From: a virus
Direction: 5' to 3' (one strand)
IMG/VR virus record: IMGVR_UViG_3300032236_001859
Span: 124,001 to 188,000 of that record
DNA: 64,000 bases
The notes under the pieces are model-generated. The model had not been told where the DNA came from. It saw nothing but the letters and a program-made list of their open reading frames with translations, and made no database searches. Positions 26,887 to 59,474 of the stretch are shown piece after piece (position 1 is the stretch's first letter; every line of letters starts with the position of its first letter). A program made the position numbers and the translations under genes.

Positions 26887-26887
26887 A

Positions 26888-37564: not shown

Positions 37565-38428
37565 TCACTGAGCGTCAAGCCCTGCGACATAGGCGTCCAG
37601 CTCGGGACCTGAGATATCAGTTTGTAACACACGATCCCAGAGCACACGTACTCCATGGAGATTCCGCTGCGCCGCCGGGGTTTCCCCCTCGATGTCGGCA
37701 TGTGGGATAAGGGAGTCGAGGAGCTCTGGGTTTGTCTCCTGCGTCGAGACTATCCAGTTGTGATTTCCTGCAGTGTTGGTATCAAAGGGATGCAGCAAGG
37801 TGTAATCGGCGAAGAACAGACTGCGAGGTGCGACCCCCGCGGTGCCGAGATCCTGAAGCAAAGTCTTCATGGGATCAATGTTGGGGCGCCCAATGATGTT
37901 GATCCAAATGTTCGGGGTAATCGCTGCGCATGCCTTGAAGAAGTCGACTTGATCTCCGGTGATCAGTGATTTACCATCATAGGCATCGTGAAGAATAAAG
38001 TCGTAGTGGTACCTATCACGTGGGCACCTCGCGATAAGGGGAATCAAGGCGAGGGCGTCCGCGGTGAAAACACGGAGCCGGCCGGATTCAATGGCGGCGT
38101 TGACCTCAGGGAACCCTTGCTTGCACAGGTGTACCGCGACAGGATCGATCTCGATGACGTCGAGGCGAACCCCGGGGAAATTGGCGAGTACCGCGATGGC
38201 GCCGGCACCACTACCCAGGCCGACCATGAGCCCCCTGCCATTGTGGTTCATTACCGCTGCGGCCAGCCATCCCGCGGTGTACGGAGACGCCGAGACCACC
38301 CCAGGCCCCCCGTGTTCAGATGGGGGCTCCAGAAATGAGGCGCCCTGGACCTGCCCATTGATTCGGAGCTGCCGGGCACCATGGACGTCGACGACATCGA
38401 CGACTCCGAACATGCCCTGAGCCATCAT
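37565..38428 (-). CDS. Spermidine synthase / SAM-methyltransferase fold protein
   Basis: 287 residues. A Rossmann-type motif lies at about residues 66-95: GLMVGLGSGAGAIAVL followed by VRLDVIEIDPVAV, the acidic end of strand 2 that contacts the adenosyl group. Later LRVFTADALALI and YDFILHDAYDG correspond to motifs of polyamine aminopropyltransferases, where the last Asp is catalytic. The N-terminal beta segment (VDVHGARQLRINGQVQG) also resembles spermidine synthases. It is overlapped with a structural-type gene by four bases, so it is expressed with head genes. It could make polyamines for DNA packing or methylate a substrate; the fold is more certain than the reaction. Confidence 0.75.
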   Translation of the reverse strand: MMAQGMFGVVDVVDVHGARQLRINGQVQGASFLEPPSEHGGPGVVSASPYTAGWLAAAVMNHNGRGLMVGLGSGAGAIAVLANFPGVRLDVIEIDPVAVHLCKQGFPEVNAAIESGRLRVFTADALALIPLIARCPRDRYHYDFILHDAYDGKSLITGDQVDFFKACAAITPNIWINIIGRPNIDPMKTLLQDLGTAGVAPRSLFFADYTLLHPFDTNTAGNHNWIVSTQETNPELLDSLIPHADIEGETPAAQRNLHGVRVLWDRVLQTDISGPELDAYVAGLDAQ

Positions 38429-39720
38429 GCCGGCTGGAGTTCGGGATGAGAGTGATCTGCAGGGGCATATCGTATGCGTGGCCCTGCACTGCGTGGTGCG
38501 CGTGGAGCCCGCGTAGGCGCTGGTGCTTCGTCTTCGTCAGACATCGACTTGTACAACAAATAGCCAAGCCCGAGTACGGCGGCACCCCCCGCGCTGTACT
38601 TCAGAATCTTCACGGCCTCTGGGGATGTGACGAAATCAGTTACCTTCTTGAAGGATTTGGAAATATCGTCGACCGACTTCGCAGTGTCTTTTACGCCGGA
38701 ACCCAAGTTGGTTACCGCGTCGGATGCCTTGTCAGCAGAGCTGGTAACTTTAGACACTGAACTATCGATATTCTTCAAAGTGGACCCAGCGTCCTGAGTC
38801 AAACTCTGGACACCTCCGAGGGCACCAGTCAATGCCTTCATCGCCGGAGTGGTTTCATTGGCAGCATTAGCCACAGCACCCGCGCCCTGTTCAACTGACT
38901 TCGCAGCACCAGCAGCGGATTGCCCGACCTCGTCCACATTCTTACGAAGAGACTTGACCCCCTCGGAGACATCCTGGCCGACCTGCTTAACTGTGCCAGT
39001 AGACGTATTGACTACATCCCGAACACCTTGATCAACTGCCGAAAGTAGACCTGGCTTTCCATCTTTGTCTTGTAGTTTCTCTTTTGTTGTCCCTGCGATG
39101 TCGTTCGCCTTGCCTAGTAAACCGGCACCATAACTTGCAGCCTCTACGCCTGCGGCAGCAGCACCTAACCCTAGTTTTTGCTTGACGACATCATTTATCC
39201 ACGTGTCCTGGCGGGCACGTGATGCCAGAGGCGACAAGACTGCGTGGGCAAGCTCTGGGTCTGCAGAGGAAACAGTTTCAACCCTATTAGTGGTGGGGGA
39301 GTGAAAACTGAACTCATGTGCACCTGTCTGTGGGTTTAACTTCCACAGTGGAGATCTTGATAAATCCATTTTGCCCTCAGCGGCATCTCGGAGATGCCGT
39401 TGCGCCAACCCAAAATCCTTACCACTCATCCCATGGCGAGTTGACTTGGTAGCCAGGGATCCCCCAAGGATCCCTGCTATTCCGGCTTCACTCCCGGCCC
39501 CGATTGGATCCTGCCCCGCAGCAGTAGCGCCTGCGTAGGTTGCACCGGCTACAGGTAACCCCACTAACAGCGGCGCCGGGGTCCTCCCCACCAATGCACG
39601 TGCACCGGTAAGTGCAGGTGATACCCCTGATGACAGCGCATCCATTGCTCCGATGAGCCCCCTGCGATCTGCGGCTACCTTTTTAGTCAGATAAAAAAGC
39701 ATGATCTGAGCTGGACTCAT
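38425..39720 (-). CDS. Coiled-coil virion-type protein with C-terminal membrane anchor
   Basis: 431 residues. The N-terminus has the recurrent motif (LFYLTKKVAADRRG) and Gly/Ala-rich regions. Residues about 225-365 are an unbroken chain of amphipathic Val/Ala/Ser/Lys repeats (TGTVKQVGQDVSEGVKSL and similar), typical of a long apolipoprotein- or LEA-like coiled structure. A hydrophobic segment near residue 385 (YSAGGAAVLGLGYLLYKS) is followed by an acidic then Pro/Arg-rich tail. The anchor resembles that of the metallopeptidase-like protein (YLVYKS plus acidic). The gene overlaps its neighbours on both sides. Function unknown; probably a virion or internal protein. Confidence 0.72.
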   Translation of the reverse strand: MSPAQIMLFYLTKKVAADRRGLIGAMDALSSGVSPALTGARALVGRTPAPLLVGLPVAGATYAGATAAGQDPIGAGSEAGIAGILGGSLATKSTRHGMSGKDFGLAQRHLRDAAEGKMDLSRSPLWKLNPQTGAHEFSFHSPTTNRVETVSSADPELAHAVLSPLASRARQDTWINDVVKQKLGLGAAAAGVEAASYGAGLLGKANDIAGTTKEKLQDKDGKPGLLSAVDQGVRDVVNTSTGTVKQVGQDVSEGVKSLRKNVDEVGQSAAGAAKSVEQGAGAVANAANETTPAMKALTGALGGVQSLTQDAGSTLKNIDSSVSKVTSSADKASDAVTNLGSGVKDTAKSVDDISKSFKKVTDFVTSPEAVKILKYSAGGAAVLGLGYLLYKSMSDEDEAPAPTRAPRAPRSAGPRIRYAPADHSHPELQPA

Positions 39721-41804
39721 GACTGGGACTCCTGTGGAGGCATCGGTGCAGTCTGTGCGACTTCTTCTGGGTTCTGGATCTCCGGGGTCTCAGGCTTCGC
39801 CGCCTTCGACTTCCGGATCGCACGATGGATCACACGTGCCCTGGCACGATCAAGATTACGGAATGGCTTATTGATGGCTAGACCCATGGATCCGTAGACC
39901 TGTTTGAGGACTTGGTCATGGGGGAGCCACTCACCGGGGAAATCCGCGGGTGCCTCGCCTTCACCGAGATGAAAGGCGTAGTCGTAGCCGTGGTACCCAG
40001 GCTCCGCGACACCCTCATCAGGAAGAACGCGGACGTTGGATGAGTAAGGTGCAGGGGCCCCCTTACCCTCGGTGGGGAAATGAAACCGACGGTTGCTGTC
40101 ACGTCGGACCAATACTTTACCTTCGGGATCCAAATAGACGTACTCGGTCTTAGGAAGCAGCGCGGCAGCATCTGCCTGCTTCTTCAATGGCATCTCGGTG
40201 TGCGTGGCCAGTACGTCATCTCCGACCCCGCCTGTGAAAAACTCGGTCTCATCAAAGTAGGTGACCCCTGCGGCTTCAGCGGCACCCTCGTCATCGGGGG
40301 AGTTACCAACCATGCAGATCACGGGATCCAGAGAGAACGCTTCTTCGGCGTATTCGATCATCGCTGGAGACGGCTTCCGGCCGGCGTCGTCTTCATCGGT
40401 ACAGAACACGATGTCGTCGATCTCGGGGAGGAGCTCAAGGGTTTCATCATTGAAGTCGAGGACATCGGGGAGCGTGTTCGTCCCCATGACACTGCGGTTG
40501 GTTACCCCAACGATGCGGACCCCTGCAGCCTTAAACTTCTTGAGGAGTTCTTTGACCCCTGGTTTGATCTTCTGGGTGGCCTCGAGGCCGGCGTCGTCAT
40601 CCCATTCGGCGACAACGGTACCATCGAGGTCAACGAGGAGTCCTGGTGCCGACTCAGGCGTCTTGTCCTGGAACTTATGGGTTCTCATGGACCCCGAGAT
40701 CTCCGCGGCATGCTTCTCGGCGAGATTGTTGGTGTGCTTGGCCATCGTGAAGTCCCCGTTGGTTGGGGAATCCCCGCTGCGGAGGACAACCAGAACTCTG
40801 CCATCCGGGAATCTCCGGACTTCATCGAAGTAGTGGCCATGGGCGGCCTCGAGATCCTGGAGCGCCTTCACGAAGACCTTGGGGTCCTTGGGGGCATAGA
40901 TGCGACGAAGACTGTTACGGTACAGTGCCCAGCCGTGATGCTGCCGGGGCACACTGGCGAGTTTCTTACCCTTGAGCTCGGGATCCTTCTTCGCCATGTC
41001 CCTGGCGGCCTCGACGAGTTCGAGGCGGACCTCGTTGGCTCTCTTGGCCCAGTCGTTCTTAGCAATGAGTTCTTTGAGCCTGGTAATCAGCGTAGCAAAG
41101 GGGATCACATCGAAATCCTCCCGATCCGGGTGTGTGGTCCCCAGTTTGCCGTCATGGACCCCAGTGAAGAAATATGTGCGTTCGCCATCGAATGCGGAGT
41201 CATCCCAGAAGTCGTTGACCCCACTTGGCCAAATCGATTCTACGATCTCACGAGTCTCCGGAGAAATGATCTTGAGATCGGCTTCCTCGATGGCTTCCCG
41301 GATCGCGGCGAGTAACGGGGGTTCGCCGTCATCGATGCCGCCACCGGGGAACAGGATGTAGTCGCCCTTGTCGATGCCGACGACGCCATCCTTATCGAAG
41401 GCGATGAGTTCGGATCTCGGTCGCAGGAGTTGCGATGGGGAACCCTCGTGCTTATCGGGAGTGGGTTCGTTCTCAGCGGCTTTCTTGCCGAGACCCCTGG
41501 CGAAGCTGTGATCCCTGCGTTGTTTCGCCAAGGCGGCCTCATCAGGTTCGACATCCTTGGGTTTCGCCGGCAGCATCTTCTTCGCGTTGGTCCACACCTT
41601 CTCCGCAGGAGATGGGAGGTCGTGGTCCTCTGAGGTCCCCCTGCAGTCGCCACCACTGAACAGTTCAAGAAAGGTTTTGCCCTCGACCATGTGGGCATTG
41701 GTTGCCTTGACAGGATTCCCACCCGTTGGCGTCGCCACAGGTGTGTTGGTCACGGGGCGATCACTACCCCGCCCCGGAGATGGAATCTTGGTCTCCGCTC
41801 GCAT
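39717..41804 (-). CDS. Nudix hydrolase - HAD phosphatase fusion protein
   Basis: 695 residues. Residues 1-120 are disordered, with Lys-x-Ala motifs. Residues 128-240 are a Nudix domain: the Nudix box is at 155-177 (G-x5-E-x7-RE-x2-EE), with Asp in place of the usual final Gly. Residues 388-520 are a HAD-like phosphatase: DLDGT (392-396) as motif I, VTNRS (Thr435) as motif II, GRKPSP (Lys477) as motif III and GNSPDD (500-505) as motif IV. The last 150 residues begin YVYLDPEGKVLVRRD, reminiscent of a degenerate Nudix-like start. Substrates might be nucleotides or capped RNA, but no specificity can be read. It is coupled to a structural-type gene, so it may travel in the virion. Confidence 0.85.
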   Translation of the reverse strand: MRAETKIPSPGRGSDRPVTNTPVATPTGGNPVKATNAHMVEGKTFLELFSGGDCRGTSEDHDLPSPAEKVWTNAKKMLPAKPKDVEPDEAALAKQRRDHSFARGLGKKAAENEPTPDKHEGSPSQLLRPRSELIAFDKDGVVGIDKGDYILFPGGGIDDGEPPLLAAIREAIEEADLKIISPETREIVESIWPSGVNDFWDDSAFDGERTYFFTGVHDGKLGTTHPDREDFDVIPFATLITRLKELIAKNDWAKRANEVRLELVEAARDMAKKDPELKGKKLASVPRQHHGWALYRNSLRRIYAPKDPKVFVKALQDLEAAHGHYFDEVRRFPDGRVLVVLRSGDSPTNGDFTMAKHTNNLAEKHAAEISGSMRTHKFQDKTPESAPGLLVDLDGTVVAEWDDDAGLEATQKIKPGVKELLKKFKAAGVRIVGVTNRSVMGTNTLPDVLDFNDETLELLPEIDDIVFCTDEDDAGRKPSPAMIEYAEEAFSLDPVICMVGNSPDDEGAAEAAGVTYFDETEFFTGGVGDDVLATHTEMPLKKQADAAALLPKTEYVYLDPEGKVLVRRDSNRRFHFPTEGKGAPAPYSSNVRVLPDEGVAEPGYHGYDYAFHLGEGEAPADFPGEWLPHDQVLKQVYGSMGLAINKPFRNLDRARARVIHRAIRKSKAAKPETPEIQNPEEVAQTAPMPPQESQS

Positions 41805-42557: not shown

Positions 42558-42968
42558 TCACATCATAACGGACAAAATGCTGAGGACACTGCCGGGGATC
42601 GCATTGACGTCGAGTTTGAGATCCTCTTCAGTCAACTTGGTGATCGCGACTTCAGTCTCGATGTCCAAGATGGTTTCACGTTCCGCGTTGTACTCAGCCA
42701 CTTTTTCCTGGGGGATCATTTTGTCAGTGGTGCCCTCTTTGGGCACCGCGTACTGACGGATTACAGCATCGATAGACTTCTCGACGACTTCGGCGAGGGG
42801 GCGTAAGACACTCAGGTTCTTGCCAATCTTGAAACGAGTCGAACCCGAGAACTCATAGTTCTTCAGGTAGACTTGAGTTTTACCCTCAACGGTAATAGGG
42901 GTCGGGACTCCATCGAGAGCAGTCAGGGCCTGACGGAGTTCGACGACTGCACGGTTGGTAAGTTTCAT
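42558..42968 (-). CDS. Small helical phage protein (DUF1617-like)
   Basis: 136 residues, start MKLTNRAVVELRQAL with AGAGGA seven bases upstream. The opening K-L-T-N-R-x-V-x-x-L-x-x-A-L pattern and overall length are like small phage proteins of the DUF1617 type. A helical middle (FKIGKNLSVLRPLAEVVEKSI) and a C-terminal part follow (AEVAITKLTEEDLKLD-like). The match is from memory of the motif and not decisive. It is the first gene after the fibre region and may be co-transcribed with the head genes that follow. Confidence 0.6.
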   Translation of the reverse strand: MKLTNRAVVELRQALTALDGVPTPITVEGKTQVYLKNYEFSGSTRFKIGKNLSVLRPLAEVVEKSIDAVIRQYAVPKEGTTDKMIPQEKVAEYNAERETILDIETEVAITKLTEEDLKLDVNAIPGSVLSILSVMM

Positions 42969-43058: not shown

Positions 43059-43643
43059 CTAGCCCGTGGGGGCCATGAGGGCCATAAGAGCGTTGGCGAG
43101 CCTGTTGGCTTCGGTTTCGAGACGCGAGGCCTCTCCCTCGGCGACACGTAGGGCCTCCTCGGCAGCGGCGTGCTCGGGGTCATCGGGTAGACTCTCGAAG
43201 ACGCTGGTGAGTCGAACGACTTCCGCGGCAGCGGCACGGGAAGCCTCCGAAGCCGCCTTGAGGGCCTCCGCGGTATTCGCGAGGTCAGCCTTACGGGTCT
43301 CGCTGATATCACGGAGTTCCTGCATGTGGCGGGCCAGGCTGTAGATGTGGGTATGAATGGCCCCCACAGTTGTCATCCCAATGATTGAGTCATCGATCAG
43401 ACTTCTCAACTTCACGGGCTCATTGGGATCCGTGGGGACATGCACCAGTGGGGGGTAGTGGTTGCCAAGTGACTTCTCGACATACTCCCCTTTGACGAGG
43501 ACCAAGGCGACTTCTTCTTCGTGCATCGTCGCACTAGGCACTCCATCAACTGGGTTGCTATTATTGTTATGCCAGACCCGTCGGCGTGGCACCCCGGGCT
43601 CAGTGTTCGGGGCATAGTTGGGTACCTGATATGATGCTGGCAT
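43059..43643 (-). CDS. Coiled-coil fibre-associated protein
   Basis: 194 residues, start MPASYQVPNYAPNT with AGGAAGTGAG upstream. The N-terminal 80 residues are extended with a beta-like patch (EEEVALVLVKGEYVEKSL). From residue about 100 to the end there is a continuous Ala/Glu/Arg-rich coiled coil (ISETRKADLANTAEAL and so on) that would trimerise. It is the gene after the 1800-residue fibre, so a fibre-connector or head-fibre role is a reasonable guess. No family recognised. Confidence 0.68.
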   Translation of the reverse strand: MPASYQVPNYAPNTEPGVPRRRVWHNNNSNPVDGVPSATMHEEEVALVLVKGEYVEKSLGNHYPPLVHVPTDPNEPVKLRSLIDDSIIGMTTVGAIHTHIYSLARHMQELRDISETRKADLANTAEALKAASEASRAAAAEVVRLTSVFESLPDDPEHAAAEEALRVAEGEASRLETEANRLANALMALMAPTG

Positions 43644-43668: not shown

Positions 43669-46600
43669 TCATTGTGCAGTCAGGGTGACGTCGTTGCCGT
43701 CGCCCCCAACATACGAAATCGTGAAGTTCCGTACAGTGCCTGTGCTGGCAACGGTGGCTCCTTCGGGGAGCCCGTTGAATACGCCAGTTACTGGTCCCGC
43801 GGATTGTCTGTCAATGATCGTGAAGACCTTTCCGACCGCAGGGGAGTACCCCAACCGAATCGAAAGTGTGGCATTGTTGAGAACAACGCCATCTCCGGTA
43901 CTCGGGATCACGAGCTGATCATACTGGGTGCCCGCGGCATCCCCGTTGAGATCCAGGATCACCGTGGCGCCTGAGTTATTCAGATTCAAAGACTTCATGC
44001 TGAGTGCTGCAGTGGCCACGGGAGTCCCAGGACTCATGGTCCCAGAGGTCACGGTGACCACGGAGTTGAGGACCCCGGAACCCCCCAGCGTGGTCCCAGC
44101 ACCAACATTGAATGCTGCGAAGTCTGGCCTCACGCCTTCATCGTTGTCATTGTGGTTATACAGTAGAGTGCCCTCGACAAGGCTCCACGTAAATGATCCC
44201 CTTGCGGAAGTCCCATCGGTATGCGTGTAATCGGCCTCCGCGATGACCAGTGTACCCGCACCAACCTTGATCAGAGTCGTGGCTCCAGTTCTCTTGCGAA
44301 CCATGGTCAGACAACTCTGACCACCTGAGTCTCCCCATGTCGGGCAGAAGATGACCTCACGGGTTTCCGTACTCCCCAACACCATGGTATCCCCGGCGTG
44401 GCGAACAAACATCTTGAGGACCTGATTGTCGGTGTCTGCATTGGCGTGGATGTTGATGTCACCACCAAACATTCCTGCCAGGGTTTGTCCCGCTGCGTAT
44501 TTCGGTGACCCCAGGAGCGTGGCCAAGTTGCTGCCTGATCCGGCATCGCTGGATGCCCCGAGGACACCACCGATCTGCTTGTTCAATGTGGGGTCCGCGG
44601 TACCCAGTGATCCAATGAGGAAACTCTTGCCCTCTGGGATCTGATACGTGGTCCCTGCCCCTGAAGTCGCCGTGAGCAGGAACCCAAAATGTGCGGTGTG
44701 GTCAACTGTATCCGTGGCACGATGGACTGCGGAGATATACCCGGGACCCACGGCACCGGGGAGGAAGCTGTTGACTCCTGAGAAACGGATGAACCCAAGG
44801 GCGCCTTGCGTGGCTGTACCCACTGGGAGCACTGTGGGGTAGACGCCGAAAAGACCAAGGGTCAGACCCCCGTATCCATTGACCAGATTTTGCTTTAGAC
44901 TGGAAGTCCCATAGTTCGACGCTGCTGTGCCTCCAAAAGGAGCAGTTGGAATCCCTGACATCGAGTACGTGCCAGATAACACGAGTTCTGTGATCGCGTT
45001 ATCACCTGTGGCGTAGCCTTGAAATATCACACTACTGCTACCGACAAACATGCCTGATAGCGTTGCGCGGGTTCCACCTGATGTACTAAGCCCAGGTCCG
45101 AGACTCCAAACCGTGAGACCAAGTGGCCCAAGCAGTGAGAAATTATTGGGATACACGGAATCGGAAATCGACGCAGTATCCAGTAAGAGATTTCCCCCCT
45201 TACCTCCAGTGACAATGGGGCCGGTCCCCGCGGATGCCCCTTTTGCCAAGCGAAGATTGATAGCCCCAGCCTGTGCCCCAGACTCCTGTAGGGCGAATCC
45301 ACCACTCCACGCAGAGTTATCCCCACTAAGAATCAACAGGCTGTAGTCACCACCTTGACCATAAGAATTGACGTGTCTTATGGAACCTGCTCCACTTATG
45401 GTACCAGATAGTTCCACTCTTCCAGTCATATTAACTGGATTAACTGCTAAGGGGCCGTGGAGCGTTACGCTGCCCTGTATTACTGCACCGGTTCCCGCAG
45501 AGTTGGGTGTTCCGATATACCCCCCTGCAGCACCGACAACGATATTCGTATTGGAATAAATATCCAGTGCATGGCTGAAAAAGAGCACACCTCCCATTAG
45601 ATAGATTGTGCGGGGGGCAGTGAGACCCCCAAGACTACCACTGGCGCCTGCCGTCAAGGTTCCAGCAAGAATGTAAATATCCCCTATGGCGTTATTCGCG
45701 TTACTTAGGGTAACCGTGTTAGCCAAAAACTTAGTAAATGCGTAGCCGCCCGTGATCTGTGACGCGATGATAAAACTGTTCTGATGACTCCCCACTATTA
45801 GATCCAGTCCGTTGCCTGTTGTAAGTGCTCCGCCCGTGATGGCTACAACCCCGTTAATCGTACTAGCGATCATGCCACTGGTCACTGTCAAAGTTTTTCC
45901 AGTAGCGATTGTTATAGTCCCACTGCCCAGTGTGACTCGAAGAGAATTGATGGCGACATCATTAGCGATAGTCCCAGTAAGTGTTCCTGCTTTGATGTTT
46001 TGGCCTGCGGCCCATAGCGAGCAATCGTTTTGAGACGTGTAGGCCGGGGGTCCGAAGGTGCCCGATGCCGCGGCGATATAATCACCACCATCAACTCCAG
46101 GTACGAAGCCTTGGGTGGCCCCTATCAATAGGGCATTACCTCCGGCGCCTGAAACACTGCTGCCACCTGCAGTAGTGGGTGCGTTCGTAAAAGAAGGGAT
46201 AAACCCCGTATTCGTGAATTGGTTGACAACCCCACCAACTGCGCGAGTGTACCCAGCACCCCCTGCGGTTCCTGTAAATGCCAGATTGACTGATGATGCC
46301 TTTATGTTGCTTGAACTAATTGAACTAATCCCGGCCTGGATCGAAAGACTGTATAGGGTCTGGGAATGCGTGTATGCCCCGGCATCTGGGTAGGGGATGT
46401 TGAATGTGCCCCCGCCAGTGGTGCCCCCTAGAATCAGACGCGCCGATGGATTGATACGATTCGTGACGTTCCTATTGCTCGCCTCGTTATTGGGTATTGT
46501 CTCACCACAGTTCAGGGTGCCAGACCCCATGACCGTGATTGGAAGATTAGCGACTGTTATTCGCCCATAGTTAGCAGCTGTCCCAGGTAACCCTACAGTG

Positions 46601-49071
46601 GCCCCCAGGTTTATGAGTAGACTGGAAGTCCCTGTTAGGTCTCCTTGACTGGCGACACCATTGTTGGTTAAGAATAGGGTGGGGCCAGACACCGAACTGC
46701 CCATCAGTGAGTTCGTGGCGACACCTCGAACCACGGTGACCCCTGAGTAGTCCTGCGAGGCTGCGATGGCGAGAGCCCCAACTGCGGCCATAGCTGAAGT
46801 GGGTATCACTGCTCCAGTGGCGACATCTAACGGATTCGCCCCTGTGAGTGCGTTGACTCCTGAAAGCAACATCGCACCGCCGTTCAGGGAGAAAGGGGGT
46901 GCAAACTTGTAACCAACGGTGCTGTTATATGGCGTTATCGACCCCGCAAAGGTGATAGTGGTATTGTTCGCGGTCGCCATGAATCCAAGACGAACATCCT
47001 TATTGAGGCCGGCTGCACTGAGATCAATGTTACCTGTCTTGTTATCCAGTGCTAGGATTGATTCAGTCTGTGTCGTGAATCTTGCCAGAACGGCAGCAGT
47101 GAATAAAGCATTGCTACCAAACCCGAAAACAATTCCAGCTGGAACCGTAATTGGATTTGGGGTAGCCGTGTTCCCACCTGTATTGGAGCCATCTGAGCCC
47201 ATCGCTGCCAGGGAGTCGAATCGAAAGGCACCCCGACTGGATGTATCCAGTATGAATCCAGCATCAAATGCGATGTTGGATCCCGCGAGTGCAAAGCGAT
47301 TAAAATTAGCAGAAACCCCGACACGTAGGACCAGGGGTCCTGCACCTCCGACATCCTTGGAGATCGCACCACTGAATATCGTTTCAGAGTTCTGAGATGT
47401 ATAGCTGCCAAGGGCACCACCTTTGATGCCTATAACAAGTGGATCAGTGATTGTAGCAGCACCACTCCGGCTGGCCTGATCGCGGATTCCACCCCCATTG
47501 ATGAGAACACTGCCGCCTCCAAACATGCGGCCTGAAAGTGCATTAGTTAATCCGGTTACCCCGAAAACACCTGAGCTCAGGGTAATCCCGCCTGTGTACC
47601 CCGTTGCCGTGTACGCTGCATGGACCTCAGCAGAGGGGGACATCGCCACTGTGATGGCCTGTGCGGAGGCCCCTATGGTCCCCAGGTTACCCGCACCCCC
47701 ACTTGGATACAGTCCGTTGAGCCCCCCATTACCGGATCCCGCGATGACAAGATTGGCATTGAGAGTGAGCCCCCCTGTGTACGTGAATGCCCCACCACCG
47801 GTCTGATTAAATGCTAGGGTGCGTGGACTCCCATTGATGGAGCTCAGAGTTGTCGCACTTACGGTGGCGCTTACACCCTGACTACTGCTGCCACCAAACG
47901 CCATGGTGCCAGTTAGGGCTGGATACGGGCGCCCAAGTGCCATCCCATTACCAGGACTAAAAAATAAGGCACCTGCACTTGGCAGTGACAGACTCGCGAC
48001 TCCAATGAAATCACCACTTAGAGTGCTTGTTAGACCAGCTAGACTGTTGAATGCCCAAGATGCCCCAGTCTGTGCACCGCGAATACCAATGGTCCCGCCC
48101 GCATTGATCGTGATACTATTGGTAAGTATTAACGATGGATTGCTGGCGTTCAGTGATCCCCCGTAATTGACAACATAAGCACCGCTACCCATCGCGGTCT
48201 GAGTGTTTGCAGCGAGGTTACCACCAACATTGTTACCCGAGAACGTGATACCGTCACCTACGGTAATCGCGCCTGTGTTCGTTGCGGCGTCAACTGTGGA
48301 GCCCTGAGTAACGGTTCCGGGGCCACGGTATGTGATCACGTTACTACCCCACTGCATCGTGGCATCAAAGGCGACGTTGCTGAGGGCTGTTATGATCACA
48401 GGGGCCACAATGGACTGACCGGCTGCGAATGCTAAGGAGCCCGCCGGGGAGATGTCACCAAGGGTGCATGAGCCTTCAATGCGAATTGTTGCCGTGAATG
48501 TACGACCGTTGTTATCCCCCATGCTGAGGCGGCCATTCTTAATAGTGATAACCCCTGTACCAAATGAATTAGCATTCGTGGAGAACACCCAAGCAGTGTT
48601 CCCATCGATGATGAGTCCTCCGCTACCAACACTGGAGGCACTTGTGATCGACCATGGCCCCGATTTTACGGTGAGAGTGTTTGTAAAGCGTAGTGCGGTA
48701 CCCATGGAAACCGCGCCTGCTGTGCTGTTGTCCCACTGTGCCCCTGGCGCGATTTGTAGATTACCTGATGCAAAGGTGAGTGTGCCATTGCGTACCAATA
48801 GATTACGGACTGTCTGGAGGCCATTCACGGTTACCGTATAGGATCCAGTTGCATTGCTCCCCGCAGCGAACACGGCATCACTTCCCTGGATCCATGCCCG
48901 TGTGGCCAGGAGACCCGCGGGATCCGTGGTCCAATAACTATTGGTCCCCCATGTCCCCGTCGCAGTCGTCGAGTTCGTGGCGCCGACACTGGTACCATTG
49001 GCATCCCAATACAGCGTAATCGGTGCGTACCTGTAGGAGGGGTAACAGATATTACCGGAGCCGATTGACAT
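43669..49071 (-). CDS. Giant fibre with autotransporter-associated beta-strand repeat passenger
   Basis: 1800 residues. Almost the whole length is Gly/Ser/Thr/Asn-rich beta-strand repeat. The N-terminus (residues about 15-110: LYWDANGTSVGAT, TGTWGTNSYWTTD, SDAVFAAG, NLLVRNGTLTFASG) and the C-terminus (GGSGVLNSVVTVTSGTMSPG, GTQYDQLVI, LGYSPAVGKVFTIID, ISYVGGDGNDVTLT) match the caps of bacterial autotransporter-associated beta-strand repeat proteins, abundant in Verrucomicrobiota and Planctomycetota. There is no signal peptide, beta-barrel or PEP-CTERM sorting tail, so it is not a complete surface autotransporter. Located among fibre genes, it is probably a beta-helical adhesin on the virion. 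Parts of the coding DNA are less GC-rich than the head genes. Function inferred. Confidence 0.8.
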   Translation of the reverse strand: MSIGSGNICYPSYRYAPITLYWDANGTSVGATNSTTATGTWGTNSYWTTDPAGLLATRAWIQGSDAVFAAGSNATGSYTVTVNGLQTVRNLLVRNGTLTFASGNLQIAPGAQWDNSTAGAVSMGTALRFTNTLTVKSGPWSITSASSVGSGGLIIDGNTAWVFSTNANSFGTGVITIKNGRLSMGDNNGRTFTATIRIEGSCTLGDISPAGSLAFAAGQSIVAPVIITALSNVAFDATMQWGSNVITYRGPGTVTQGSTVDAATNTGAITVGDGITFSGNNVGGNLAANTQTAMGSGAYVVNYGGSLNASNPSLILTNSITINAGGTIGIRGAQTGASWAFNSLAGLTSTLSGDFIGVASLSLPSAGALFFSPGNGMALGRPYPALTGTMAFGGSSSQGVSATVSATTLSSINGSPRTLAFNQTGGGAFTYTGGLTLNANLVIAGSGNGGLNGLYPSGGAGNLGTIGASAQAITVAMSPSAEVHAAYTATGYTGGITLSSGVFGVTGLTNALSGRMFGGGSVLINGGGIRDQASRSGAATITDPLVIGIKGGALGSYTSQNSETIFSGAISKDVGGAGPLVLRVGVSANFNRFALAGSNIAFDAGFILDTSSRGAFRFDSLAAMGSDGSNTGGNTATPNPITVPAGIVFGFGSNALFTAAVLARFTTQTESILALDNKTGNIDLSAAGLNKDVRLGFMATANNTTITFAGSITPYNSTVGYKFAPPFSLNGGAMLLSGVNALTGANPLDVATGAVIPTSAMAAVGALAIAASQDYSGVTVVRGVATNSLMGSSVSGPTLFLTNNGVASQGDLTGTSSLLINLGATVGLPGTAANYGRITVANLPITVMGSGTLNCGETIPNNEASNRNVTNRINPSARLILGGTTGGGTFNIPYPDAGAYTHSQTLYSLSIQAGISSISSSNIKASSVNLAFTGTAGGAGYTRAVGGVVNQFTNTGFIPSFTNAPTTAGGSSVSGAGGNALLIGATQGFVPGVDGGDYIAAASGTFGPPAYTSQNDCSLWAAGQNIKAGTLTGTIANDVAINSLRVTLGSGTITIATGKTLTVTSGMIASTINGVVAITGGALTTGNGLDLIVGSHQNSFIIASQITGGYAFTKFLANTVTLSNANNAIGDIYILAGTLTAGASGSLGGLTAPRTIYLMGGVLFFSHALDIYSNTNIVVGAAGGYIGTPNSAGTGAVIQGSVTLHGPLAVNPVNMTGRVELSGTISGAGSIRHVNSYGQGGDYSLLILSGDNSAWSGGFALQESGAQAGAINLRLAKGASAGTGPIVTGGKGGNLLLDTASISDSVYPNNFSLLGPLGLTVWSLGPGLSTSGGTRATLSGMFVGSSSVIFQGYATGDNAITELVLSGTYSMSGIPTAPFGGTAASNYGTSSLKQNLVNGYGGLTLGLFGVYPTVLPVGTATQGALGFIRFSGVNSFLPGAVGPGYISAVHRATDTVDHTAHFGFLLTATSGAGTTYQIPEGKSFLIGSLGTADPTLNKQIGGVLGASSDAGSGSNLATLLGSPKYAAGQTLAGMFGGDINIHANADTDNQVLKMFVRHAGDTMVLGSTETREVIFCPTWGDSGGQSCLTMVRKRTGATTLIKVGAGTLVIAEADYTHTDGTSARGSFTWSLVEGTLLYNHNDNDEGVRPDFAAFNVGAGTTLGGSGVLNSVVTVTSGTMSPGTPVATAALSMKSLNLNNSGATVILDLNGDAAGTQYDQLVIPSTGDGVVLNNATLSIRLGYSPAVGKVFTIIDRQSAGPVTGVFNGLPEGATVASTGTVRNFTISYVGGDGNDVTLTAQ

Positions 49072-49072
49072 A

Positions 49073-52000
49073 TCAGGGCACCTTGGCGTTCAGCGACATC
49101 GGGATGGCATCCCAGGTGACGCCGCCATCGAGGGTAGTCATCCCAATGATGTCGACCCCGGAAGCCGTGAGCACAGCGGCGATACCGCCGGACCAACGTG
49201 TATTCGCTGGGAAGTTGAAAGTCTGGGAACCCCCGTTGGTGATGTGGAGGACAACCGTCTTGGAAACCCCCGATGCCGGGAGGTTCGAGAACGCCAGGGT
49301 CACCGCTCCGGTAACCGTCATGGTGATCCGCGTCGCGGTGAGACAGTTAATCGTGATTGTCCCAGCACCCGTGTTACCAATTGCATTCACGGGTTCGTTT
49401 ACGTTTTTGATAATGAGTGTGCCGCCAACGGAGACGTCTCCGCCGGCGTATATGGAGCCCAGGAGACCCATGCCACCCGCTGATGTAATGGACCCCGTCA
49501 ATGTGCTCACCGATGCGGCCGCCGACGTGACTATTAAGGCGCCTGCCCCTGGGGACGCCGAAAACGCACCACCGATTTGAAGACCACCATCACCCCAGAT
49601 ACGAACCTTCTCAGTGGTCAAGATGGTGCCGGGGGTTGTTGTCCAGAGGCCGATGCGGGTGCCCTGTGCGGCGTCTGTCCAGTTCTCAGCAGTGAAGATC
49701 GAGACGAACCCACGCGCCGCAGATGAGTAACCCGTGGCCCCGTAACCCCACGCTGAGAGGTTGGTGATTTCATCGCCAGCCTGGAGTGCACTGGGTGCGG
49801 TCAGGGTACCCCGACATGCGCGTCCCGCGAATACCGCGTAACCGCCGCCGATGCCCATGGCGACATCGGCGAGAACACGGGTGACCCCTGCGTTACCATT
49901 ACCATTGATGACCTGTGCGATTGTACCCGCAGGGGCCGCTGGTGCCGTGATCCCTGTAGCCAAGACTTTGAGGCCACCAAGGGTGCCCACACCCCCAGCA
50001 GTGAGTGCGCCACCGACGTTGAGAGCACCGCCGATGCCGACACCACCGGTGACCACAAGGGCGCCATTGGCCGCAGTGGTCGATACCGTGGTATCCCCGA
50101 AGCGGACGAGACCCAGACCAGTCTGAATCGCGTAATTGGTTTGACCGAAAGTGATGTCCTCGAGGAGGAGCCCATAGGCCGTGGTCAGGGTTCCCGCGGA
50201 ACCCCCGAGGGATCCATAGAACAATGCCGCAGTGGTACAGGTACCCCCCGCGGTGTCCATGTAGAACTCGGAGTCGATGCCATAGAACCCACTAAGGGTC
50301 CCCGCCGTCGTCGATACCGTGAGATCCGCACGATACCCGTAAATGACTCCGAAGTTATATCCCCCGTACAGACGCTGGGAAACCGTGTCGCCCATGTATC
50401 GCCCATTACGGGATACCGTGGGGGTAATGTTGACTTCAAGGTAGCGTGCCGTGCGGTCCACGGTGGCATTAGGGGCATATGAGATGACTTGCTTGATGCC
50501 ACCGACCATGTTGAGCGCGGAGACCCCAGTGGCCCCCACGGCAACCGAGGTATCCCCAAGGGTGACCAAACCGGTACCCGTGTAGATCGCATAGTTCGTG
50601 GTGGCCCCAGTGATACTGGGGAGATAGAGCCCGTATCCTGTGGTGATGGTGCCCGCGGTGTACGACCAGTTGCCTCTGAACAACGATGCGGCACCAACTG
50701 TGGACCCCGCACAGTTGAATGATAACGAGGTCCGGTACCCAATAATCGAGTTGACTGTGCCTGCTGTCTTCGTGTCAGTCAGCGTGGTGTTCTCACCCAC
50801 TGCGATACTGAAGTCCTCGGCTCCCGTGAGTGCAATGGAGTGGTACTGACTATAGAACGCCCCAATCGAGGAACTCAAGGGGTTCAGGGTCACACTGTCA
50901 TAGATACCGTAGACGGTCCCCGTGAGATGCCCCAGGGTGCCATACAGGGTACGAATGCTGCCAGTAAGATTCAGGGCACCTGGAGTCGTGCTATCCGTGG
51001 TCGCCGTGCTCGTCGAGTTCAGGGTGCCCGCAGCAAAGATGTCTCCACCGGCGCCGATACCCCCGGCGACCTTCAGCGCACCGGTGACCGCGCTAATTGA
51101 CGCCGTCGTATTCGCAATGGTGAGACCACCAGTGGCCAGTGTGCTATTGTATGAGAAATTGGTGGATCCCGTGAGGATGCCGTCACCACCTCCAAACCCG
51201 ACGAGACCTGTGGCCAGCGCTGCCGTGATCGTGCAACTGAGAACCCCAAGTGCGGAGAGGTTGAGCCCAGTCCCGATCGAGATCTCTTCAATCGCACCGG
51301 GATCCGCGGAGAACCTGCCAAGGACTCGGGCTGTATTCATGGTGAGCCCAGAAGACCCCACGGCCCCATTGAGGGCACCATCAGTGATCCCATAACCACT
51401 CAGGGTGGTGGGGAGATCCGAACCAATGTGATTCCAGCTCAACGAGGGAATATCGGTTTCGACTAGAGCTCGGAACGCAGGGACTGCAGAGGATCCCAGG
51501 GGATCACTGGGCCCCGCGAAGACAAGACCCGGGGACTGAACCGCCCATTCCGCGCTGAGATCCCCTAACGTGGTCACCGGGGAGAACGTGATGCTGAACT
51601 CAGGTGGCAACACGAGTCCAACGGAGGTCACCGTACCGGTACCCAGGATGGGCGCCCATGCCGAACCCGTGTAGTGGACATAGGAATGCGTGGCGCGGTT
51701 GAAGACAAAAACGCCTTCAGCTGCTGGGGTGAACACCCAGGCGCCGTCACGATATGCGGCTAAAGCATTGGGATGCCCGAACCAGGCCCCCGTGGGGAGT
51801 GTGCCCGTGATCCAGCGCTGTTCTGCACTCGGGGACCCTGGGGGTGTATTTGTGATGGCTTGAACGGGGCCACCCCAGAACCCATCAGCGATTCTGCGAT
51901 CGACGACCTGACGTGTGGTCAAATGGGCATCTGCGGTAGCCGCGATACCCGCGATATTGGCTACGAAGGGGTGGAGACCGTCGGTGGTGACAACGTCAGT

Positions 52001-52093
52001 CTCCAGCGTGCTCGTCGCGATAGGATTTGTTGCGGAGACTCGACGCAGCTGCCTGCCGTCAAAGAATACCGGCTTCTGAGGAGTGCTTGGCAT
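49073..52093 (-). CDS. Tail fibre protein with DUF2793-like N-terminal region
   Basis: 1006 residues. GAGGA lies about seven bases upstream and the start overlaps the preceding stop (TAATG). Residues about 70-150 resemble DUF2793 (GFWGGPVQAITNTPPGSPS, then ALAAYRDGAWVFTPAAEGVFVF, then YVHYTGSAWAPI), a domain of phage fibre proteins. The rest is Gly/Thr/Ala-rich strand repeats, including an internal duplication around the NYAI(Y/Q)TG-x-GLV-x-(L/F)GDT sequence. The C-terminus (TLDGGVTWDAIPM) resembles fibre tips. It is immediately followed by the 1800-residue fibre. Probably a receptor-binding or fibre component. Confidence 0.78.
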   Translation of the reverse strand: MPSTPQKPVFFDGRQLRRVSATNPIATSTLETDVVTTDGLHPFVANIAGIAATADAHLTTRQVVDRRIADGFWGGPVQAITNTPPGSPSAEQRWITGTLPTGAWFGHPNALAAYRDGAWVFTPAAEGVFVFNRATHSYVHYTGSAWAPILGTGTVTSVGLVLPPEFSITFSPVTTLGDLSAEWAVQSPGLVFAGPSDPLGSSAVPAFRALVETDIPSLSWNHIGSDLPTTLSGYGITDGALNGAVGSSGLTMNTARVLGRFSADPGAIEEISIGTGLNLSALGVLSCTITAALATGLVGFGGGDGILTGSTNFSYNSTLATGGLTIANTTASISAVTGALKVAGGIGAGGDIFAAGTLNSTSTATTDSTTPGALNLTGSIRTLYGTLGHLTGTVYGIYDSVTLNPLSSSIGAFYSQYHSIALTGAEDFSIAVGENTTLTDTKTAGTVNSIIGYRTSLSFNCAGSTVGAASLFRGNWSYTAGTITTGYGLYLPSITGATTNYAIYTGTGLVTLGDTSVAVGATGVSALNMVGGIKQVISYAPNATVDRTARYLEVNITPTVSRNGRYMGDTVSQRLYGGYNFGVIYGYRADLTVSTTAGTLSGFYGIDSEFYMDTAGGTCTTAALFYGSLGGSAGTLTTAYGLLLEDITFGQTNYAIQTGLGLVRFGDTTVSTTAANGALVVTGGVGIGGALNVGGALTAGGVGTLGGLKVLATGITAPAAPAGTIAQVINGNGNAGVTRVLADVAMGIGGGYAVFAGRACRGTLTAPSALQAGDEITNLSAWGYGATGYSSAARGFVSIFTAENWTDAAQGTRIGLWTTTPGTILTTEKVRIWGDGGLQIGGAFSASPGAGALIVTSAAASVSTLTGSITSAGGMGLLGSIYAGGDVSVGGTLIIKNVNEPVNAIGNTGAGTITINCLTATRITMTVTGAVTLAFSNLPASGVSKTVVLHITNGGSQTFNFPANTRWSGGIAAVLTASGVDIIGMTTLDGGVTWDAIPMSLNAKVP

Positions 52094-52563
52094 TATTCGT
52101 CCTCACTGCTGTCTCGGCTCAGGAACTTGTTAAGAAGATATGCGGAGCCCAGGCCAAGGCCGGCGCCAGCTGCGGTGCCCCCTGCGGCGATCCCAGTGGT
52201 CTCCATGGGGGTGCCTTCGCCATAACGAGCATGCCGTCTCGCGAGTTCACCACCGAGGCCGGCGCCGAGTTCAGTACCTGCACCACCGAGAACCCCCGTG
52301 ATCGCACCCTTCATGGTATCCCGAAGTCTGTCACCCTTCTTCGCAGTCAGGTACTTGTAGGCACCGAGGCCGAGGCCACCGATGAGAGCACCCTTCCATG
52401 GCATCCCCATGCCCAGGGATTCCGCGAGACCGACACCTGGTGTCGGGTTGGGGGTCGGGAGATCATAAACTGGTACGGGTGGGCGAGGTGGTTGTGCCAG
52501 CAGTGGAGTCGCCTCTGCGGCGACTTTAACAAGACTGGTGGCCAGGAAGACGTCAAGTGTCAT
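52093..52563 (-). CDS. Gly-rich membrane-associated protein
   Basis: 156 residues. It begins with the recurrent head-type motif (LATSLVKVAAEATP), followed by a Pro-rich linker. Three Gly-rich hydrophobic stretches come next (ALIGGLGLGAYKYL, GAITGVLGGAGTELGAGLGG, GTAAGAGLGLGSAYLL) with glycine-zipper character. The C-terminus is charged (SRDSSEDE). It may sit in a membrane or assemble into a compact helical bundle. It is coupled to both fibre-type neighbours. Similar Gly-zipper content occurs in the 245-residue protein near the polymerase. Confidence 0.65.
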   Translation of the reverse strand: MTLDVFLATSLVKVAAEATPLLAQPPRPPVPVYDLPTPNPTPGVGLAESLGMGMPWKGALIGGLGLGAYKYLTAKKGDRLRDTMKGAITGVLGGAGTELGAGLGGELARRHARYGEGTPMETTGIAAGGTAAGAGLGLGSAYLLNKFLSRDSSEDE

Positions 52564-55226: not shown

Positions 55227-58200
55227 TCAGGCGTGCTGTAAGGTGCAGGCTCCACCGGCACATGCCATCTCGGGTTGCGCCCCCTTGGTACCATCGGTTT
55301 CCTCAACCATCAGGGAGTAATCGACATCGCGCCAGTTCCGGGATAGACGTTCCCAGAGATGGAGATTGTTGACTTCCTTGAGGCAATACGTCATCCGCTT
55401 CAGAGCAGCGACACGATCTGCATCGGGGGTAGATGTGGTCAGCAACGCTGGGTACTGGAAGTAATTTGTGGCGAACTGTACGGCCCTGCGGACCCAATCC
55501 TTCTTGAGTTCGTGGACATGCTCGTAGGCCTCACGGATGGCATCGGGTAGCGCGTTGGGATCCGCGGGATACGGAACTCCGTTGGCAAGAATCGAGGCTT
55601 CACCGAGCCCCATCACGGTATCGCATGCCAACCAGAGGTTGTTACCGAAGGCGTGGAGCCCATCGACGATGAGACCAGATGCAAAGAAGGCACCGCGGCC
55701 ATAGCGCTCCAGGATTTCACTCTCGGTACGGACCTCACAGAACGGGGCCTGGGGATAATCGAGATCCCCTGAGGTCCCCAGGATACTGACTCCCGTGAAG
55801 GACTCCCGGTGCTCGTAGATGTAACGTGCGGCGTCTTCCTCTTGGTTCTGACGAATCGTGATCGTGTTGGAGACATTGTGGTGCAGCCAGGGCTTCACAG
55901 CACGCTCGGGCACACTGCCAGCTGCAACCCAGTTGTCCTGGGTGAGCTTGACGTACTCGAGCTGCTTGAGCCCATTGACCTCACGCCGCGTCAGGGCTTC
56001 ATCGGAGGCCTCGATGCAGAACGTGATCACCGCGGTGTTCCCGTTGGGTTCCCACACCGAGCGTTCAACGGCATCGGGGTTGTGAACCTTGAAGTATTGG
56101 AAGGGGGCCTCGTTGACGTTGGCCTGGGCTCTGCGGAAGTACCGCTTGGCGTGTTGAGCATGGATCCCACTCGATGTCCCGAGAAGGCATGACGTTGATC
56201 CCGCGGGTTTAACACAGGTCGCCCGTGCCGTGGGCCGGATACCCAGCCGGGGTGCCAGATCAGCGTTGACATCGAGGATGAGCTTGGCGAGGTCACGCTG
56301 CCGCTGGGGATCAAAGGACTGCGAGGGGTTGTCCATCATCCCAGTCATGGAGACCCCGAGGAGGGCCTCACGTTTCGCGATACACTCGCTGACATTACCG
56401 AGGTAGTCGAACTTGGTATAGCCGGCCTGGAGAGTGCCCAGGATCGCCGCTGCGGTGCACGCACGTCCCCAGTCCTTATCGGTACGGCAGGCCTTGGCGT
56501 TGACTTCACAGAGATTACAAAAGCTCCACCCTGAGATCTCTACGTTTGCATATTCAACGACTTCTACGGAATGTTCCCCGTTGATCTCATCGAGATCTTT
56601 GTAGGAAATCGCTGGGTACATCCCGGTCTCCACGCAGTTCGAGACACTATGACCTCCTGTCCAGTAAGTGTGACTCTCATTGTCAACTGTGATATCATAC
56701 ACCTCCATATCACCAAGCGAAGTAACTGATCGAATAGCATAGGTATCCTGCGTGCGCCCTGAAATCCGTATGTCGCATGCAGCTGATAAGCGAGATACCT
56801 TGCTAGAGTGGATAAACCCTATCAGTTTTGCGAACTTACAACGGTCGACGCTGATATTGATGTCGTAGCTTTCTTTGCACTCATACACCCCATTACTAAA
56901 CTCGACGTCGTGCGCCCTGTTAGTAGTGAAATAGCTGCGAATACCGAGAGATGACAACGCAGTCTGTACATCATCTCGCAAACCAGGGCTACACGTCTTC
57001 AGCGTAACTCTATTAGCAACGACACTTCCATTTGCAGAGTACAGCCCACGTAAAACAGAACACAGGATATCCTGCCCAGATTGTAAAAACCGCTGTGGGA
57101 TCCTACGCGATGGGATGGTTGGCATGTCTTCTTGGGTGAGCAACGAGAAGTCTTGAACTTTGAACAGCCTGGTGCTCCCACCGTAACCCTCCCTGGATAC
57201 CCATGGCATACAGTTGAAAATCTCCTGATCGCCCGCACCTATGTTGAGGAGTAGACCTCCCCCAGCCTTGTGCCACGTGCCATCGCCAAGCAACAACCCA
57301 ACCATAATGTTTGCATCGTTATGCACAGGGGCTTCGCCGACATCCGCTGTAAGCACGTCTATAGATTCTGCCAACCCAACCTCGACCTTCTCCCCATGCT
57401 GCTCCACCCGATGATTAGCCGTACCTACAAATACACCTGCAGACGTGCGGTATTCCGATACCGGCTTTATTCCAGTGCTCCATTTCCTCAAAACACGAGT
57501 CCAGCCCTCGCGGCTCCAAATCACGCTACCTACATCGATATCTGCAAAAGTGCGCAAACCATCGGGGGTAAGAACAGTAGCACAGGCGGGTTGACAGGGG
57601 TTCACCATGAGCTCGGAGCTATCCGACCACACGAACCCGGGCTCCCCGTACTGGCGGCGTGCCAGCATGAAGATGTCATGGAAGGCTTCCCAAGTAGTCT
57701 CACCCCGGATCAACATCGCCGAGTTATTAGAACGCGCCCGCTGGGGGTTGTCCTGCATCCAGTTCCCAGTCTTCGCGTTCATCATTTCGGGGTCATCAAC
57801 ACTGAACAAGCAAATCGTGGCGCTACGACGAACCCCACCGGCGAGGACGGCATCCGAGGCGTGCATGATGATGTCGTAGACATCGATGGGGCGGAGGTGG
57901 CAGTCTTCACCATGGCACCGGGTCAACGCGGTATCAAGGACCCCACGAATCTTTTCCAGGGATGCCGAGAGAGGCCCAGGCCCTGGAGCCTTGCCTGCAC
58001 CCGTGCTCAGACTCGAGCCCTGGTTACGGATGCGCGAGTAATCAAAGCTGACATGGCTGCCGACATAATCGGAGAAGAACCCGGGGTGCTGGAAGGACAC
58101 CTTGGCATCATTGCCTGGTGCGGTTTCTTCGGCGAACTCTTGCATCCCGACACCCAGGCATCCATAGGAGGCCAGGAGAACACCGAGGGCATCAGCCCAG

Positions 58201-58637
58201 CCTTCAACACTGTCGGCAACCGTGAACACCTTGATCTGGTGTTTATCCACCGCGATTAACTTGGGCAGCTTGGCGACGTGGTGGCGTTGCACCGAGAACC
58301 CGGTGCCGCAACCACAGAGCAGAAGATATAGGCATTCCTGGAAGAACCGGGGGCGATCCGCATAGGATCCCGAACAATTGAACGCTCTGGCCTCTTTCCT
58401 CAAGATAGGGGAACCACCGAATTGAAGTGCTCTCTGGGAGCCCAGGACCAGGCCATCTTTCATGGCTTCCAGACAGAAACTCAACTCGGCTTCGATATCA
58501 AACCCTTTATATTTCGTGCGGTGCATTTCGATGACGCGTTCAAAACTCTCACTTGGTATTTCGCGTCGATTCAGTTCAGGTAAAAATCGTCCATAAGACG
58601 CCGCGAACTTGTATGCTGCTAGTGATTGCGTGGTCAT
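55227..58637 (-). CDS. nrdJ: Class II ribonucleoside-triphosphate reductase (B12-dependent), intein-containing
   Basis: 1136 residues from MTTQSLAAYKF; this ATG has GGAG six bases upstream, whereas the ATG four codons earlier does not. It reduces ribonucleoside triphosphates to deoxy forms using adenosylcobalamin. Signatures: FNCSGS with redox Cys88, a LAGGVRRSATICLF block, the active-site N-P-C-V-E (N346, P347, then C668 and E670 after splicing), SFCNLCEV, and a C-terminal C-x4-C pair (C1126, C1131). The pattern is that of monomeric RTPR (Lactobacillus leichmannii type). A 320-residue intein (348-667) sits right before the thiyl-radical Cys; the mature enzyme is about 816 residues. No B12 riboswitch was seen in the short upstream gap. 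It gives the phage its own dNTP supply. Confidence 0.92.
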   Translation of the reverse strand: MTTQSLAAYKFAASYGRFLPELNRREIPSESFERVIEMHRTKYKGFDIEAELSFCLEAMKDGLVLGSQRALQFGGSPILRKEARAFNCSGSYADRPRFFQECLYLLLCGCGTGFSVQRHHVAKLPKLIAVDKHQIKVFTVADSVEGWADALGVLLASYGCLGVGMQEFAEETAPGNDAKVSFQHPGFFSDYVGSHVSFDYSRIRNQGSSLSTGAGKAPGPGPLSASLEKIRGVLDTALTRCHGEDCHLRPIDVYDIIMHASDAVLAGGVRRSATICLFSVDDPEMMNAKTGNWMQDNPQRARSNNSAMLIRGETTWEAFHDIFMLARRQYGEPGFVWSDSSELMVNPCQPACATVLTPDGLRTFADIDVGSVIWSREGWTRVLRKWSTGIKPVSEYRTSAGVFVGTANHRVEQHGEKVEVGLAESIDVLTADVGEAPVHNDANIMVGLLLGDGTWHKAGGGLLLNIGAGDQEIFNCMPWVSREGYGGSTRLFKVQDFSLLTQEDMPTIPSRRIPQRFLQSGQDILCSVLRGLYSANGSVVANRVTLKTCSPGLRDDVQTALSSLGIRSYFTTNRAHDVEFSNGVYECKESYDINISVDRCKFAKLIGFIHSSKVSRLSAACDIRISGRTQDTYAIRSVTSLGDMEVYDITVDNESHTYWTGGHSVSNCVETGMYPAISYKDLDEINGEHSVEVVEYANVEISGWSFCNLCEVNAKACRTDKDWGRACTAAAILGTLQAGYTKFDYLGNVSECIAKREALLGVSMTGMMDNPSQSFDPQRQRDLAKLILDVNADLAPRLGIRPTARATCVKPAGSTSCLLGTSSGIHAQHAKRYFRRAQANVNEAPFQYFKVHNPDAVERSVWEPNGNTAVITFCIEASDEALTRREVNGLKQLEYVKLTQDNWVAAGSVPERAVKPWLHHNVSNTITIRQNQEEDAARYIYEHRESFTGVSILGTSGDLDYPQAPFCEVRTESEILERYGRGAFFASGLIVDGLHAFGNNLWLACDTVMGLGEASILANGVPYPADPNALPDAIREAYEHVHELKKDWVRRAVQFATNYFQYPALLTTSTPDADRVAALKRMTYCLKEVNNLHLWERLSRNWRDVDYSLMVEETDGTKGAQPEMACAGGACTLQHA
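56637..57596 (-). mobile_element. LAGLIDADG intein in the ribonucleotide reductase
   Basis: 320 residues inserted between N-P and the catalytic C-V-E of the reductase. It starts with Cys1 in CQPACATVLTPDGL, has block B GTANHRV (His62), LAGLIDADG helices VGLLLGDG (99-106) and LRGLYSANG (182-190), and ends MEVYDITVDNESH then GGHSVSN, with +1 Cys. The penultimate residue is Ser instead of His. The second helix has Asn where an acidic catalytic residue is expected, so nuclease activity may be lost. The DNA is more AT-rich than the exteins. Confidence 0.9.
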
Positions 58638-58724
58638 ATAACACTCCATGTAGTCGTTGGTTTTTGTGTCACAGGGGTTACATCCTGTGGGGGTTTACTC
58701 TCAGTCAAGTCCGTTGGTGTCCGC

Positions 58725-59279: not shown

Positions 59280-59474
59280 TCAGAACCCTGACCCCGCAGC
59301 GGCATCCCTTGCCGCTGCCCAGGCCACGGCATCAAAGGTGACCAGGACATTTGGTTGTGAGGCAAATCTGACTACGACTTTGTCGGTGCCATACGGCATC
59401 CACATAATGGCTTCTCGCACGTTATACGTGGAACCACCGACAACAGGGGTAAAGAAATTATCTGTGAAAGCCAT
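59280..59474 (-). CDS. Small fibre-module protein B
   Basis: 64 residues. It shares the module with its downstream neighbour: TYNVREAIMWMPYGTD, then VVVRFASQPNVLVTFDAVAW. The start overlaps the stop of the 1122-residue fibre gene (TAATG), so it is made together with the fibre. It may be a separated copy of the fibre's C-terminal module. Confidence 0.68.
   Translation of the reverse strand: MAFTDNFFTPVVGGSTYNVREAIMWMPYGTDKVVVRFASQPNVLVTFDAVAWAAARDAAAGSGF

Follow-up and report, generated by a model that had tools for sequence, protein, structure and literature searches.

A passenger-type protein lacking export signals in an exchangeable tail-fibre cassette of a jumbo phage

Described passengers, phage adhesins and the virus under study

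The closest bacterial counterparts of the giant phage gene described here are the PATR (PF12951)/PEP-CTERM proteins of Verrucomicrobiota, which share with its product an N-terminal cap (N-cap), a C-terminal cap (C-cap), the order of the two caps and a predicted beta-rich, passenger-type body. The phage-encoded protein differs from them in lacking a signal peptide and a PEP-CTERM tail, and in having almost no canonical repeats. Type Va passengers such as antigen 43, pertactin and Hap, retrieved by fold search, appear comparable in an autochaperone-like C-terminal region and in the modelled beta-solenoid strands of the C-terminal half, whereas the giant protein has neither Sec signal nor translocator barrel, and these resemblances come with low TM-scores and no PDB sequence match. 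Among phages, gp38 of the T-even phages PP01 and S16 is an adhesin located at the tail-fibre tip and termed a polyglycine-helix protein (PMC12892980). Our locus may be regarded as analogous to gp38 by position only, as a separate gene which directly follows a fibre gene and varies with the fibre end; there is no homology between the two, and tip attachment of the giant protein is putative. Tail fibres of other phages with modular downstream genes (DUF7483, RCC1 propeller, LamG) are alike in that a related fibre C-terminal domain is followed by an exchangeable adhesin-like gene, whereas the downstream module in the present virus is a bacterial passenger-type protein.

The source virus, termed here G000, is a 216-kb IMG/VR record, from which a window of 64,000 nucleotides (G000:C1:124001-188000) was analysed; positions below are those of the window unless stated otherwise, and all window features named lie on the minus strand. 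G000 encodes a multisubunit RNA polymerase, a portal and fibres, and its RNA polymerase and portal are approximately 27-30% identical to those of Salmonella phage Arash and Vibrio phages D69, D148 and D181. Two related viruses served for comparison, G001 (UViG_3300045131_002121, 72.9 kb) and G002 (UViG_3300037485_001979, 171.6 kb), the latter being 93% identical to G000 in a 695-aa gene 2 kb away from the giant gene. This neighbour (39717-41804) lies amid the genes of the structural cluster, encodes a fusion of NUDIX and HAD hydrolase domains, and is 93-95% conserved.

Several further observations were made on this genome. The RNA polymerase beta subunit (21031-26958) carries an intein-like insertion at residues ~596-1033 that is absent from G001 and G002. 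Other intein-like inserts (window 55227-58649; L016 17897-20653) vary as well: the ribonucleotide reductase insert differs across the three viruses, and a portal insert occurs in G001 and is missing from G000 and G002. An N-terminal motif of the L..KVAA or L.KKVAA type is common to several cluster proteins (18041-19096, 20284-21021, 38425-39720 and 52093-52563) and is perhaps a packaging or protease-processing signal. Beyond the window, a 106-aa protein (G000:C1:59764-60084) starts with MKSSAFTLIEILILIAIAAVLGVLL and resembles the N-terminus of type IV prepilins; its G002 counterpart is 55% identical.

Anatomy and homology of the giant gene

The passenger-like giant gene occupies an open reading frame at exactly 43669-49071 (1800 aa, ATG start), and its start codon lies 1 nt past the stop codon of the fibre gene upstream, with identical spacing in G001. 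A 17-aa leader, MSIGSGNICYPSYRYAP (49021-49071), takes the place of a signal peptide; its pattern M.IG.GNI.YPS..YAP is also seen in G001, and it possibly acts as an attachment segment. Next come the N-cap (48742-49020, about aa 18-110), which follows the pattern YWD.NG...TW...W...G..A.F.AG..ATG..TV, a variable middle (44332-48681, aa 131-1580) and the C-cap (43672-44331, aa 1581-1800), which corresponds to an autotransporter-associated pre-barrel or autochaperone-like region. No signal-peptide-like segment was found in the first 45 aa by a simple hydropathy check (not SignalP), in which the best 10-residue value was 0.62 vs. 1.4-2.7 ahead of the N-cap in six bacterial relatives. The protein ends with GGDGNDVTLTAQ* directly after the C-cap, leaving no PEP-CTERM sorting tail, and it matched no outer-membrane barrel in Pfam, NCBIfam or PHROGs. 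A preliminary description of this DNA, made from sequence only, had already stated that signal peptide, sorting tail and barrel are missing, which is borne out here. Codon usage is ordinary for the phage, thus a recent acquisition is not evident despite a lower GC3 (0.53 vs. a mean of 0.65).

As a whole, the 1800-aa protein had no match in Pfam, PHROGs, NCBIfam, PDB sequences or isolate phages, and no homologue was found among 50,697 phage records. The caps behave differently. By tblastn the C-cap matches plasmid-encoded "autotransporter-associated beta strand repeat" proteins of Azospirillum at 31-37% identity (E 8e-7 to 2e-5), and with the C-terminal 220 aa as query 171 bacterial candidate stretches were confirmed, the best at 39-58% identity and the top ones planctomycetal. 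By phylum, C-cap matches were found in 26/195 Verrucomicrobiota, 10/199 Planctomycetota and 5/200 Pseudomonadota genomes; conservation in a seven-sequence C-cap alignment was too low throughout for any part of it to be used in scanning a collection. A single PATR (PF12951)-like repeat (44206-44274) scored 14-18 bits, under the curated cut-off of 27. Because canonical PATR repeats are nearly absent, the resemblance lies in the caps and not in an extended series of PATR units, and it is for the caps that the likeness to autotransporter-associated repeat proteins stated in the preliminary description is confirmed.

A profile of the N-cap (N-terminal 130 aa) matched at least 35 of 338 Verrucomicrobiota genomes, down to E 2e-21. 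Among the candidates scored there was none in Planctomycetota (0/294), Pseudomonadota (0/299), Bacteroidota (0/198) or Acidobacteriota (0/119), 0/910 in total (Fisher p = 3.6e-21 for Verrucomicrobiota vs. these four phyla); these four empty phyla offer no N-cap positive control, and of them Planctomycetota and Pseudomonadota did yield matches in the C-cap search. Since a limited number of candidates was scored per genome, the N-cap genome counts are lower bounds. Judging from these searches, the N-cap gives the cleaner signal and the C-cap appears less phylum-specific. In the Verrucomicrobiota relatives the N-cap usually stands directly after a signal-peptide-like segment, and many of these proteins end with PEP-CTERM motifs such as VPEPGTYAALAGLAMLGYAAWRKRRR. 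In one of them (L177, 3372 aa), a match to the N-cap (E 6e-8) is followed by a weak one to the C-cap (E 8e-4) and then by the tail VPEPGTYAALAGLAMLGYAAWRKRRRTTK.

An AlphaFold2 model of the C-terminal half, built on a 20-row alignment, had a mean pLDDT of 60. It shows a ladder of beta-strands at aa ~1030-1300 (pLDDT ~60-80), low confidence in the rest of the variable middle and a pLDDT of about 90 or above for most of the last ~170 aa in the C-cap. When this model was compared with the PDB by Foldseek, antigen 43 ranked first (E 1.5e-6), followed by Ssp, pertactin and Hap. Viral fold matches were weak. The N-terminal half was modelled poorly (mean pLDDT 42) and was unusable for a fold search. 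Because TM-scores were low, mostly 0.1-0.35, the fold search supports membership of the passenger class and not a detailed model. The beta-helix for which the preliminary description had proposed structure prediction is putative over the whole length of the protein. The same list bears on whether the protein is instead a beta-helical depolymerase, a tailspike-like enzyme that merely happens to bear passenger-like caps. Tailspikes and PL6 alginate lyases do appear lower in the list, but they rank behind the autotransporter passengers (E >1 and E >0.1, respectively), and no catalytic family was recognised in Pfam, NCBIfam or PHROGs; we therefore regard an enzyme of this kind as highly improbable.

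The fibre cassette in three related viruses

That the giant gene sits within a phage fibre cluster is confirmed by the gene it adjoins (49073-52093), which encodes a 1006-aa DUF2793 protein with tail-fibre PHROG matches. The first ~215-300 aa of this fibre are conserved among the related viruses (~215 being common to all three), and the remainder is exchanged. Its C-terminal domain is of the phrog_9017 type (49076-49459); over the last ~125 aa G000 and G001 resemble each other, and in G002 this part is replaced. G001 carries a syntenic version of the giant gene (1743 aa), and the gene is absent altogether from G002, whose adjacent DUF2793 fibre bears a different C-terminal part; in these three viruses the fibre C-terminal part and the giant gene thus co-vary. 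Downstream, a 194-aa protein (43059-43643) is 49% identical in G001 and has a 252-aa counterpart with a duplicated unit in G002, and a 136-aa protein (42558-42968; 58% identical in G001 and 43% in G002 by tblastn) closes the fast-evolving cassette on its downstream side.

A dedicated role of the fibre C-terminal domain as adaptor for the giant protein was considered and is weakened, as the domain occurs in many phages without such a gene. In other phages, a related domain can precede other adhesin-like genes within a few genes.

Between G000 and G001 the giant protein is 80% identical over the first 100 aa, 86% over the last 100 aa and 26-59% in the middle, computed per 100 residues. Third-codon-position identity is 21-50% across the giant gene vs. 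75-89% in the neighbouring 695-aa gene, and dS of the caps reaches 1.5-3.3 (rough values near saturation) vs. 0.24 in that neighbour, giving rough cap dN/dS values of about 0.14 and 0.03 under this near-saturated dS. Both caps look to be under purifying selection, and the low third-position identity relative to the neighbour together with the low cap dN/dS points to an exchanged cassette under purifying selection. The simplest reading of the three viruses is that a fibre-plus-adhesin cassette was exchanged and drawn from an older gene pool. Because the two phage copies are so far apart at synonymous sites, the giant gene must have existed for a long time in some gene pool, which could also suit an old phage fibre family that gave its caps to Verrucomicrobiota. 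The caps are short and no root fixes the direction of transfer, which would likewise agree with such a reverse transfer or with convergence of beta-solenoid caps. Against this stand the many diverse bacterial N-cap copies with export signals and the scarcity of the N-cap in phages, where no isolate-phage relative was found even at E 1 and just one other IMG/VR record carried it. Either origin is in our view distinctly unlikely, and transfer from bacterium to phage seems the better-fitting direction.

Presence or absence of the giant gene would also be expected of a moron-like accessory that is not part of the virion, whose product would accumulate in the infected cell and be released at lysis as a matrix, decoy or aggregation factor. 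The product has no recognised virion-attachment domain, and the self-associating antigen 43 is among its fold relatives. Nevertheless, the one-nucleotide spacing from the tail-fibre gene, kept in G001, and the joint exchange with the fibre C-terminal part are not what a non-structural accessory would suggest, and we hold this explanation to be unlikely. The patchy occurrence of the gene, its joint variation with the fibre and its rapid exchange are in keeping with a receptor-binding module.

A second giant and probably beta-rich protein is encoded at 59474-62842 (1122 aa, starting MATLYWHNK); it has no relative in Pfam, in PHROGs or among phages. As it is 84% identical in G002 and reduced in G001 to a 199-aa ORF corresponding to its C-terminal ~190 aa, it is another accessory fibre-like gene. 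Additional fibres are encoded beyond the window (G000:C1:105883-118787): some are collagen-like (GXY), one of 1438 aa has RCC1-like repeats and one carries SGSSHHSG repeats. In three of these four, the N-termini resemble one another (MALPIQNN, MPLPVSNN or VLPIQNN).

A candidate host-recognition module and its host phylum

We favour, as rather likely, the explanation that the giant protein is a captured passenger-type beta-solenoid which serves as a virion adhesin binding a Verrucomicrobiota host. The protein would be a secretion-free passenger of the autotransporter-associated/PEP-CTERM class of surface proteins, with homologues among those of Verrucomicrobiota, and the jumbo phage carries it in an exchangeable cassette together with its DUF2793 tail fibre. 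Made in the cytoplasm, it may fold from the autochaperone-like C-cap into a long beta-solenoid and be incorporated into the virion, on or close to the fibre, via the short leader or the N-cap, and the fast-changing middle would then bind the host surface. The receptor-binding fibre put forward in the preliminary description therefore stands in so far as a passenger stripped of its export and anchoring parts lies in a fibre cluster, while virion location and receptor binding are what we infer from that arrangement.

The protein is probably a host-recognition module and is the best clue to the bacteria infected by G000. Of the two host phyla named earlier, Verrucomicrobiota gain support from the N-cap and are put forward here as a hypothesis, whereas Planctomycetota are indicated only by the less specific C-cap, whose best single matches are planctomycetal. 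These matches weigh against our favoured explanation, as do the origin of the distant relatives of G000 from Vibrio samples and Salmonella, the finding of only one other carrier virus, G001, the low TM-scores with the poor N-half model, and the occurrence of the fibre C-terminal domain in phages that have no such gene. In a weak, first-look comparison of a 20-kb stretch of the window with 115 Verrucomicrobiota genomes, no clear spacer or prophage was detected, and almost all of the weak matches lay within the gene for ribonucleotide reductase; no tRNA genes usable for host inference were found. A more specific form of the captured-passenger explanation is homotypic adhesion, in which the passenger would stick to related self-associating passengers on the Verrucomicrobiota host, an antigen 43-like handshake. 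We give this variant very little credence; if true, the host's own adhesin would be the phage receptor.

Few verrucomicrobial phages were found described in the literature, P8625 being one example (PMC4642752). A limited full-text search of open papers returned no earlier report of such a passenger in a phage fibre cassette. The locus thus records, inside a modular phage fibre cassette, a bacterial surface passenger without its export and anchoring signals, and gives a testable Verrucomicrobiota host hypothesis for a jumbo-phage lineage without an isolate.
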